A stretch of 46,793 nucleotides of DNA from Actinomycetes bacterium. GTDB lineage: Bacteria > Actinomycetota > Acidimicrobiia > Acidimicrobiales > Bog-793. Positions within the stretch are counted from its first letter, which is position 1; every line of letters begins with the position of its first letter. The stretch spans positions 1-46,793 of the forward strand of contig JAJZLV010000010.1 in the NCBI GenBank assembly GCA_021803215.1, in the 5' to 3' direction. The position numbers and the translations under genes are program-made. Shown here piece after piece: positions 2,525-5,411 of the stretch. The notes beneath the pieces are model-generated. The model was not told the DNA's origin. It saw nothing but the letters and a program-made list of their open reading frames with translations, and ran no database searches.

Positions 2525-3328
2525 TCAGCGAGCTTCCAGCACCTTTTTCAGCACCAGCGCTCCGGAGTGCTCGAGATCTCCCGTGGCGGTCATGAGGACG
2601 AGCGGTGAGGATCGCCTGGCGTCATCCAGGCGCTCGAGGGCCCCGCTGGAGGCCTCAGAGTCCAACTCGTCGCGGTAACGGCGGGAGAACTCCTCGAAGC
2701 GCTCGGGGCGATGCCCGTACCACTTGCGCAAGCCGGCGCTCGGGGCGAGCTCCTTCACCCACAGCTCGAAGGGGGCCTCCGCCTTCGAGAGCCCGCGGGG
2801 CCAGAGCCGGTCGACGAGCACGCCGGTGCCCTCGGGGCGGTCCTTGTCGTAGACGCGCGCCACAGCGATCCCGCGCCGCCCACCCGCCCCGACGGGCTCG
2901 CCCGGGAAGCCGTGGTGGCGCTGGGTGGGAGCCAGCCCGTCCCAGGCCCGCGGCAGGTCGAGCTCGAGCCGTTCGAGCTCTTCGAGGTGGAGGGCCGAGA
3001 GAGCCTCGAGGCGGGCCTCCCCCTCTGCGGTGAGACTGAGGCGCACCACCCGATGGTCTGTCAGGCTTCTCTGGCGCTCGACCAACCCGGCAGCTTCGGC
3101 CCGGTCGACCAGCTCGACGGTGCTGTGGTGGCGCAAAAAGAGGTAGTCGGCCACCTCGCCGATGGTGGGTCGCTCCTCGCCTTGGTGCCCTCTGATCGCC
3201 AGCAGCAGCTGGTGCTGGGCCGGGGTGAGGCCGGCTGCCCGCGCCTGTTTGGCGCTCCAGCGCTCGAAGTGGCGAAGCCCGGTCCGCAGCGCCAGCAAGC
3301 GGGCGTAGGTGGAGTTGGGCAGGGTCAC
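2525..3328 (-). CDS. MarR-family regulator fused to a DUF488 (YeaO-like) domain
   Basis: A single uninterrupted frame of 267 residues. Residues 1-137 form a MarR winged helix: LTPAQHQLLLAI, then PTIGEVADYLFLRHHSTVELV as the helix-turn-helix (about 55-80), then the wing ending in VVRLSLT. Residues 154-267 match DUF488: RVYDKD, then VDRLWPRGLSK (172-182), then the LRKWYGHRPERFEEF helix. GTG 3326-3328 is chosen as start because the MarR fold begins there and a palindrome lies just upstream; the frame stays open further upstream without similarity. DUF488 has no firmly established biochemical role. The protein is transcribed divergently from the ClC gene and probably controls itself and perhaps that gene. 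The fusion is seen directly; regulation is inferred. Confidence 0.85.
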   Translation of the reverse strand: MTLPNSTYARLLALRTGLRHFERWSAKQARAAGLTPAQHQLLLAIRGHQGEERPTIGEVADYLFLRHHSTVELVDRAEAAGLVERQRSLTDHRVVRLSLTAEGEARLEALSALHLEELERLELDLPRAWDGLAPTQRHHGFPGEPVGAGGRRGIAVARVYDKDRPEGTGVLVDRLWPRGLSKAEAPFELWVKELAPSAGLRKWYGHRPERFEEFSRRYRDELDSEASSGALERLDDARRSSPLVLMTATGDLEHSGALVLKKVLEAR

Positions 3329-3333
3329 TCTTG

Positions 3334-3350
3334 TAACGATAACATCGTTA
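3334..3350. promoter_or_regulatory. Perfect 17-bp palindrome, candidate MarR operator
   Basis: TAACGAT-AAC-ATCGTTA has perfect 7-bp arms around a 3-bp centre. A further AACGAT half-like copy follows at 3351-3356. It begins 6 bp upstream of the GTG start of the MarR-DUF488 gene, in the short divergent region shared with the ClC gene. Size and symmetry fit a winged-helix dimer site. Binding is inferred. Confidence 0.65.
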
Positions 3351-3422
3351 AACGATGGATATGGCGATCTCCCCCGGGCGCGCGGATCGCATGGAGCGAC
3401 GCCGCCAGCTCGGCGAGCCGGC

Positions 3423-5411
3423 GTGAGGCCGGCCCTCGGCCGCTTCTTCGAGGCGCCCGCCGATGAGGAGGTGAGCCTCGGAGAGCCGCGACGCCGGATG
3501 GCGCTCCTCGCCCTGTTCGGGGTGCTGCTCGGCGGTGTGGGCGGGGTGGCCGCCTTCCTCGTCGTCCGGCTGGTCGGCCTGATAAGCAACCTGGCCCTCC
3601 TCCACCGGGTCGGCTTCGGGCTACCCGATCTCCGTCACTACCACCCCGGGCCCGATCTGATAGCCGTCGGCGTCGGCGGCGCTCTCGTGGTGGTGCTCCT
3701 GGCGCTGTGGAGCCCGGTCATAAAAGGGCACGGGATTCCCGAGTCCCTCGCGGCGATCGTGCTGCGCGAGAGCCGGATCGAGCCGCGGGTCCTTGTCGCC
3801 AAGCCGCTCTCGGCCGCAGTGGCGATGGGCACGGGAGGGCCCTTCGGCGCCGAGGGCCCCATCATCGTGACCGGGGGCTGCATCGGGTCGCTGCTCGGCC
3901 AGCTGGTCAGGGTCTCGGCTTCGGAGCGGCGGATCCTGCTCGCGACGGGAGCGGTCGCCGGGATGGCCGGCGTCTTCGACACCCCGCTCGCAGCCGTCAT
4001 CCTCGCCTTCGAGCTGCTCTTGTTCGAGCGCTCGCTGCGCGCCCTGCTCCCGCTCGTGCTCGCCACCGGGCTCGCGAGCGAGCTCCACGTCCTTTTGATC
4101 GGGGCGAACCCGTTGTTCGCGGTCAGGTTGCCGCTCACATACACCGCAGCCCAGCTGCCGCTCTTCTGCCTCTTGGGCCTGGCCGCCGGGCTCCTCGCCA
4201 TCCTTCTCAACAAGGGGCTCGCCGCCTTCGAGGCGGGCTTTGCCCGCCTCCGGGTGCCCGGGGCTCTCCATCCGATCATCGGAGCCATCGGCTTTACGAC
4301 CATCGGCCTCGCCGTCCCGGGCTCCCTCTCGGTCGGCTACTGGGCCATCTCGGGGGCGGTGAACGGCAAGTTCCTCCTCGGGGCCGCCGCCGCCCTCTTT
4401 CTTGGGAAGCTCTTCTCCTGGTGGATCGCCCTCGCCTCGAACACCTCGGGCGGGACCCTGGCGCCCATCTTCCTCATCGGGGCGACCATGGGCGAGATGA
4501 TCGGCATCGGCTTTGCCCACCTGCTCCCCGGGCTTAGCATCGCCCCGGCGGCCTTCGCCCTCGTCGCCATGGGCGCGACCTTCGGCGCCGCCGCCCGGGC
4601 CCCTCTCACCGGGGCGGTCTTCGCCATAGAGGTGACCGGGGCAACCCATCTGCTCGTCCCGATGCTGCTCGCCCTCGGCCTGGCAGAGCTGGTGGCCGAG
4701 CTCGGTCTTCGCGAGCGGCTGATGACCGACAAGCTCGTCCGGCGCGGCTTTCGGGTCGAGTTCGACACCGAGGTCGACCCCTTCCGGACCGCCGTGGCCG
4801 GCCAGGCGATGGACCCCCTCTCCGAGAGCTCGATCCCGCCCGGCGCTCCGAGCGTCGACCGCTCCTCCTACCTGCGAGACGTCCTGGCGATCTTCCTCGC
4901 CGAGCGGGAGGTGAACGAGGTCGTCGTCACGGCGGACGCCAGCCCGGTCGGGGTGATCACCCGGTCGGTCATCTCCGACGTGCTGAGCCGCCGCCTGGCC
5001 GAGTCCGAGCTGCAGGCTCCCACCCTCAGGCCGGCGCTCTTTCCGGCCAGGCGGCGCCGACCCCGGGGGCCGCGGGCCGGCCGGATCCCTCGGGTGGACG
5101 AGGCCCACGGGAACGCCCCAGACCCCGACGCCGACAGCGATGGCGCCGAGCCGGGCGGAGAGGCTGCGGGAGCCGGTGGCGGCGAGAGCCGGCAGCTCAT
5201 CCCAGGACCGGCCCGGTCGGCACCGCCGCCGGCGCCTAGGCTCGACCAGCAGATGGCAACGGACTCTTTGCCCGATCGCCTCCCCGACGATGACCCGGCC
5301 GACCTGGGGGGCGAGGCCGCCTGCTGGGCCCATCAGCTCTGCCCGGAGTGCGACGCCGTCATGGCAGAGGGCCACCGGCCCGGCTGTCCCTCCGCAGAAG
5401 GGCCCGCCTGA
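3423..5411 (+). CDS. ClC-family chloride/anion channel or transporter with extended C-terminus
   Basis: A 662-residue frame with a hydrophobic ClC core (about 25-465). The anion-binding loops are GHGIPE (about 102-107) and GAEGP (about 142-146), the latter keeping the gating glutamate. GGTLAP (about 343) is the third loop. Aligned to E. coli ClC, the internal proton glutamate E203 is Leu (ILAFELLL), S107 is His and Y445 is Thr, so simple H+/Cl- exchange by the known route is doubtful. A single CBS-like segment lies at about 478-526, then a Pro/Arg/Ala-rich linker and a Cys/His cluster (634-655). GTG 3423 is a tentative start; GTG 3471 is possible. The gene is divergent from MarR-DUF488. Confidence 0.85.
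   Translation: MRPALGRFFEAPADEEVSLGEPRRRMALLALFGVLLGGVGGVAAFLVVRLVGLISNLALLHRVGFGLPDLRHYHPGPDLIAVGVGGALVVVLLALWSPVIKGHGIPESLAAIVLRESRIEPRVLVAKPLSAAVAMGTGGPFGAEGPIIVTGGCIGSLLGQLVRVSASERRILLATGAVAGMAGVFDTPLAAVILAFELLLFERSLRALLPLVLATGLASELHVLLIGANPLFAVRLPLTYTAAQLPLFCLLGLAAGLLAILLNKGLAAFEAGFARLRVPGALHPIIGAIGFTTIGLAVPGSLSVGYWAISGAVNGKFLLGAAAALFLGKLFSWWIALASNTSGGTLAPIFLIGATMGEMIGIGFAHLLPGLSIAPAAFALVAMGATFGAAARAPLTGAVFAIEVTGATHLLVPMLLALGLAELVAELGLRERLMTDKLVRRGFRVEFDTEVDPFRTAVAGQAMDPLSESSIPPGAPSVDRSSYLRDVLAIFLAEREVNEVVVTADASPVGVITRSVISDVLSRRLAESELQAPTLRPALFPARRRRPRGPRAGRIPRVDEAHGNAPDPDADSDGAEPGGEAAGAGGGESRQLIPGPARSAPPPAPRLDQQMATDSLPDRLPDDDPADLGGEAACWAHQLCPECDAVMAEGHRPGCPSAEGPA
5253..5411 (+). CDS. 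Possible separate small Cys/His-rich protein nested at the 3' end of the ClC frame
   Basis: From ATG 5253 the same frame would give a 52-residue protein beginning MATDSLPDRLPDDDPADL. It carries a CxAH, CPEC, then GHRPGC cluster that could bind one zinc. A TAGGCT box at 5237-5242 precedes the ATG at a spacing like those at 8153 and 23230, so a leaderless transcript is conceivable. I have an unverified impression that stand-alone small proteins of this kind occur in related actinobacteria. If this is a separate gene, the ClC frame simply lacks a stop before it; otherwise this is a fused zinc domain. Confidence 0.45.
   Translation: MATDSLPDRLPDDDPADLGGEAACWAHQLCPECDAVMAEGHRPGCPSAEGPA

Follow-up and report, generated by a model that had tools for sequence, protein, structure and literature searches.

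The window analysed here is a 46,793-nucleotide contig from a bacterium of the Acidimicrobiales. It encodes a MarR–DUF488 fusion protein and a ClC family protein in divergent orientation, and the intergenic region that they share contains overlapping inverted repeats (Table 1).

Table 1. Features of the MarR–DUF488/ClC locus, with positions in the window.
Feature	Position	Strand	Basis and remarks
MarR–DUF488 fusion protein, 267 aa	2525..3328	-	ORF; GTG start at 3328; Pfam MarR_2 and DUF488; no cysteine
DUF488 domain, residues 154-266	2531..2869	-	Pfam; AF2 model; closest to Pfam subclade DUF488-N3i ('inactive')
MarR winged-helix part, residues 1-135 (MarR_2 HMM match 33-93)	2924..3328	-	Pfam
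Repeat of the earlier note, TAACGAT-AAC-ATCGTTA (overlapping register ACGAT-N3-ATCGT)	3334..3350	.	Perfect 7-bp arms
Putative -10 element TATCGT	3336..3341	-	7 nt before GTG, inside operator, leaderless-type spacing; putative promoter function
Predicted operator, three alternating half-sites ATCGT-TTA-ACGAT-GTT-ATCGT	3336..3356	-	Conserved in fused relatives
Dyad CATCGTT-A-AACGATG (register ATCGT-N3-ACGAT)	3343..3357	.	Perfect; register best conserved in unfused relatives
ClC chloride channel/transporter, 662 aa, divergent from fusion	3423..5411	+	Voltage_CLC; predicted start codon

ORF and Pfam analyses confirm what an earlier note on this DNA had described as one uninterrupted 267-codon frame joining a MarR winged helix to a full DUF488 domain, with all domains above their cut-offs. 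The MarR_2 match (PF12802) scores 51.7 bits against a cut-off of 27 (E 1e-13), and the MarR part shares 44-81% identity with other ClC-linked MarRs. The fusion protein scores far under every cut-off of the named MarR subgroups of NCBIfam, and no plasmid record covers 80% of it. The protein contains no cysteine, nor do four of the other six ClC-linked fusions; with no conserved cysteine, an OhrR-type thiol redox switch is ruled out. A whole-protein AF2 model built from the single sequence (pLDDT 42) was too poor to judge the intertwined N/C-helix dimer of MarR proteins.

The C-terminal part is a complete DUF488 domain. Its match to PF04343 spans profile positions 2-121 of 121 and scores 94.5 bits against a cut-off of 22.2 (E 1e-26), and the AF2 model of the domain has a mean pLDDT of 90. 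The DUF488-N3i profile also matches above cut-off (E 2e-28) and outscores the 'active' DUF488-N3a profile (100 versus 70 bits), so the best match is not the active subclade. All nine DUF488 members of the class that we examined, free relatives included, likewise match N3i. Residues invariant between free and fused copies of the class are retained in the window domain, which has in common with the free relatives the motifs LVDRLWPRG, APS and LRxWYGH and a TATxD...SxAxVL tail. In DUF488, dN is well under dS. The domain evolves faster than the MarR part (dN/dS about 0.2-0.4 versus about 0.05-0.2), indicating purifying selection that is weaker on DUF488. Structural searches with the DUF488 model returned no PDB match with E<=0.001, and no solved DUF488 relative was found by sequence or profile. 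Second-look fold matches (RapZ, tetrapyrrole methylases and dual-specificity phosphatases) reached a Z of at most 5.7 and were too weak to use.

The window genome has no DUF488 besides the fused copy; in 6 of 11 genomes examined the fused copy is the sole one, and G014 and G017 contain no DUF488 beyond a degenerate fused copy. In one scan of genome contigs, the sole match was an unrelated free DUF488. Free DUF488 genes of relatives have varied neighbours, none of them a ClC gene, and this variety led us to reject their neighbourhoods as a clue to function. We also observed a YeaO-type DUF488 gene at the extreme end, in the first 340 bases, of about 40 prophage-like viral contigs (L156-L195, mostly 37-40 kb), as if the element integrates beside the host yeaO region or the boundary had been called within it.

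The divergent gene encodes a ClC protein (Voltage_CLC, E 2e-70, 238 bits) that most likely starts at GTG 3423, with ATG 3501 as an alternative. HMMER alignments uphold its earlier description as atypical. Compared with E. coli ClcA, it keeps the external gating Glu148 and has His in place of Ser107, Leu in place of Glu203 and Met in place of Tyr445. Two markers of ClcA-type Cl-/H+ exchangers, the internal proton Glu203 and Tyr445, are thus replaced, which does not imply uncoupled transport. The protein shares the Voltage_CLC domain with ClC channels and exchangers but differs from them in its weak single CBS match, which falls below cut-off, and its long C-terminal tail. Its closest solved relative is 1kpl, and CLC-F chains have a lower overall score (34 versus 92 bits). 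The window contains no Rfam match, either to a fluoride riboswitch or to another RNA element, and a reading of the locus based on such an element was rejected. The extreme C-terminus of the ClC protein (window 5318-5411) is a cysteine-rich, zinc-ribbon-like tail (CWAHQLCPECDAVMAEGHRPGC) that is absent from the other ClCs compared.

The repeat next to the fusion start had been reported as a perfect 17-bp palindrome 6 bp upstream of the gene. Its 7-bp arms are indeed perfect, but the 3-bp centre AAC is not self-complementary, so that 3334-3350 is an interrupted repeat rather than a perfect 17-mer, and the gap to the GTG is 5 bp. The 'palindrome' consists of overlapping half-sites that make up two overlapping dyads, and the array of three half-sites begins 7 bp from the start codon. 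The repeat exceeds chance, with one exact match observed in the window where 0.17 matches are expected even at three mismatches. Both the 12-base core AACGATN3ATCGTT and the pattern ATCGTN3ACGATG are single-copy in the 2.6-Mb genome. With the core present as a single copy, a regulon beyond this locus was rejected.

Several observations point to this site as a conserved operator. First, the triple half-site has no mismatches in the window and two at most in the six other fused ClC-linked loci tested, whereas 0.6% of shuffles reach even three mismatches. Second, 24 of the 26 divergent MarR/ClC regions have the dyad ATCGT-N3-ACGAT (at most one mismatch, either register) in front of MarR, the exceptions being L031 and L040. 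It occurs in 2.5% of Markov-shuffled regions (binomial p about 1e-36 if loci are taken as independent), and the 59 remaining permutations of this half-site word are each found in 0-2 loci. The motif was read from the same loci that enter this count, so co-directional and out-of-class loci matter as tests, the latter being independent. Of the 12 pairs with the co-directional order ClC->MarR, six have the site in front of ClC and one has it in front of MarR. Of 14 loci from other classes of the phylum, 10 include ClC, and seven of these carry the site (at most one mismatch). Finally, 115 kb of sequence from 20 control MarR paralogues contains no copy of it.

Actinobacterial leaderless promoters have a TANNNT -10 element. 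In 15 of 27 loci, a TATCGT or TACGAT sequence that fits this pattern lies at a distance of 6-8 nt from the start of MarR. In the window TATCGT is formed by the last half-site, read on the MarR strand, and its N7 spacing is repeated in four fused relatives (L022, L023, L026 and L027). This spacing, taken together with the leaderless consensus, suggests that the predicted operator covers the regulator's own -10 element. A clear -10 element for ClC was not found in the window.

We identified intact ClC-linked fusions in the window genome and in six others of the same family (G001, G004, G006, G007, G022 and G023). The fused frames of these six contain no stops and share 65-72% identity with that of the window; as they come from independent assemblies at this level of divergence, the fusion is not an assembly join. 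Fusions with an adjacent ClC were also found in G650, where the gene has an internal stop, and in G012, where it is split over two contigs. ClC-linked fusions are thus present in nine genomes of one family, eight besides the window genome, and the check that the earlier note had proposed, a search for such fusions beside ClC with the same site, returned the same operator architecture in all eight. In G650 (L135) the interruption is an in-frame TAG, either a pseudogene or a sequencing error, with ClC and operator kept. The split of the fused gene in G012 (L038 and L134) falls at contig ends and is likely an assembly break; the linker there consists of a (T/G)DKGD repeat.

A second fused group (L028, L030, L032 and L041) consists of intact genes that lack both the operator and a ClC in their flanks. 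The MarR tree groups three of these (L030, L032 and L041) with support of 95/85, and their DUF488 motif around RKWYGH is eroded. The motif is also eroded in L029, where ClC is downstream and convergent. L030, L032 and L041, together with L136 and L138, encode fused proteins with weak DUF488 matches (38-47% identity) and lack both a nearby ClC and an ATCGT operator; this set is possibly a retargeted or decaying branch.

Using an iterated ClC profile to detect ClC genes, we found that ClC adjoins MarR in 38 of 50 loci with homologues of the MarR part, fused ones counted. Most of these homologues are unfused proteins of about 130 aa with 44-66% identity. The 12 loci without a nearby ClC comprise the four intact fused genes of the second group and eight others, and two of the 12 are truncated at contig ends. 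Genomes contain 1-4 Pfam ClC matches each (11 genomes checked), so by our estimate chance adjacency should amount to a small fraction of a percent. Antisense shadows of MarR and ClC aside, no third gene family is common to more than three of the 38 neighbourhoods. Such shadows also account for the larger neighbour clusters, and a wider operon or pathway including the two genes was rejected. A literature search combining MarR with ClC or chloride-channel terms, with most subscription journals outside its coverage, found no paper.

Adjacency to ClC also occurs outside this MarR group: 2 of the 20 control MarR loci lie beside ClC, with a MarR of a different subfamily. At L215 637-3105 in G020 and L205 1-1092 in G012, a MarR gene is directly upstream of, overlapping and on the same strand as a GREGP-type ClC. 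As the MarR of these loci belongs to another subfamily, control of ClC by a MarR may have evolved on more than one occasion.

The ClC proteins associated with the regulator fall into three types. Type A (GHGIP/GAEGP) includes the window, L022 and L031 among others, type B is found in L023-L027 and L029, and type C is shorter, without GxGIP and with GPEAP. The fused ClC-linked MarR clade (support 96/97) combines type A in the window and L022 with type B in the rest. Because types differ inside one supported clade, the channel was probably exchanged while regulator and site stayed. That one ClC type could replace another while regulator and site remained unchanged suggests a regulator that responds to some condition shared by these transporters and not to a feature of any single channel.

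By comparative evidence, the predicted control of ClC by MarR is well supported. The module formed by MarR, ClC and the putative operator is an old one and is widespread in the phylum, where it extends to further classes. The switch looks real, and the fusion looks like a lineage-specific add-on. In the model we propose, the fusion protein acts as a one-component repressor of the MarR type on a module of two genes. It would bind the shared intergenic region as a dimer, or as two dimers placed on the overlapping ATCGT-N3-ACGAT dyads; the bound operator would cover the -10 element of the regulator's leaderless-type promoter and would also precede the divergent ClC gene. The regulator's own gene and ClC would both be repressed until a signal, ancestrally sensed by the MarR part, releases the regulator. 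In one family, this MarR would have gained a C-terminal DUF488 as an added regulatory input, through ligand binding or oligomerisation.

Taken as a whole, this model of an auto-repressor of itself and ClC, with DUF488 as an added input, is probable in our judgement. Binding, repression and promoter positions are its firmest predictions, and we consider them very likely; the regulatory role assigned to DUF488 is tentative, with a chance somewhat short of even. A one-component circuit controlling anion transport had been proposed for this locus before. The linkage of regulator, site and ClC that it postulates does recur (38 of 50 loci; 24 of 26 divergent regions), but DUF488 is not a needed part of it: operator and target are the same for unfused MarRs, which makes the domain dispensable for the circuit.

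Two other readings give DUF488 a larger or a separate part. According to one, DUF488 is the principal signal sensor, a catalytically dead ligand-binding domain that would couple a metabolite or ion to ClC expression with DNA binding as its readout; ligand binding would free the MarR part from the ClC operator. The presence of both domains in a single polypeptide is consistent with this, as are the retention, under purifying selection, of residues invariant in free relatives and the status of the fused copy as the only DUF488 in 6 of 11 genomes. We nevertheless consider it unlikely. The Pfam subclade is labelled inactive, the domain decays in the sister fused group without ClC, and MarRs that lack it share the operator and the ClC target, which places the ancestral sensor elsewhere, probably in the MarR part. 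The same three observations count against the suggestion in the earlier note that a DNA-binding DUF488 could show what DUF488 senses, an appeal that is weakened because the circuit works elsewhere without the domain.

According to the other reading, DUF488 keeps an independent role like that of free YeaO-like proteins and is merely tethered to the regulator, its level tied to ClC expression. This would fit the genomes in which the fused copy is the sole DUF488, as well as the varied, ClC-free neighbourhoods of the free copies. It is doubtful, as G014 and G017 have no DUF488 outside a degenerate fused copy, and a role that several genomes leave to such a copy is not essential.

The adjacency of MarR and ClC might instead be incidental, with the regulator controlling itself or other genes only, as the 12 loci without a nearby ClC could indicate. 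Adjacency in 38 of 50 loci, a site that lies upstream of ClC when gene order changes and the single copy of that site in the genome make this very improbable. That the fusion is an assembly or frame artefact, which the draft state of the genome (148 contigs) might suggest, can be practically dismissed given the same stop-free fused frame in six relatives.

For bacterial ClC proteins, few of whose physiological signals are known, the preferred reading, in which DUF488 is an input added to an older MarR–ClC switch, describes a widespread regulator–operator–channel module. It specifies the DNA site and provides natural versions of one circuit with and without DUF488. These pairs offer a clean way to ask what DUF488 adds.

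The fusion resembles MarR family one-component repressors such as OhrR, SlyA, HpaR and MarR in its winged helix, which scores above the Pfam cut-off, in a short inverted-repeat site near its own start, in its divergent target and in predicted autorepression. By sequence comparison, a conserved palindromic operator is present at its own and the adjacent divergent promoter (24 of 26). It differs from these repressors in its extra C-terminal DUF488, and from OhrR in particular in having no cysteine and thus no thiol switch. DUF488 is likewise joined to a helix-turn-helix protein in archaea, where ParB-CTPase-fold proteins are fused to DUF488-HTH and CTP binding is assigned to the ParB-type fold (PMC12704722); neither MarR nor ClC figures in that work. 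Like DUF488/YeaO-like proteins (PF04343, PF22751/PF22752), the window protein has a complete domain, with a TATxD...SxAxVL tail where YeaO-type relatives from the viral contigs have LYAAKDxxxNxAxVL. It is set apart from them by the fusion of this domain to a DNA-binding domain.
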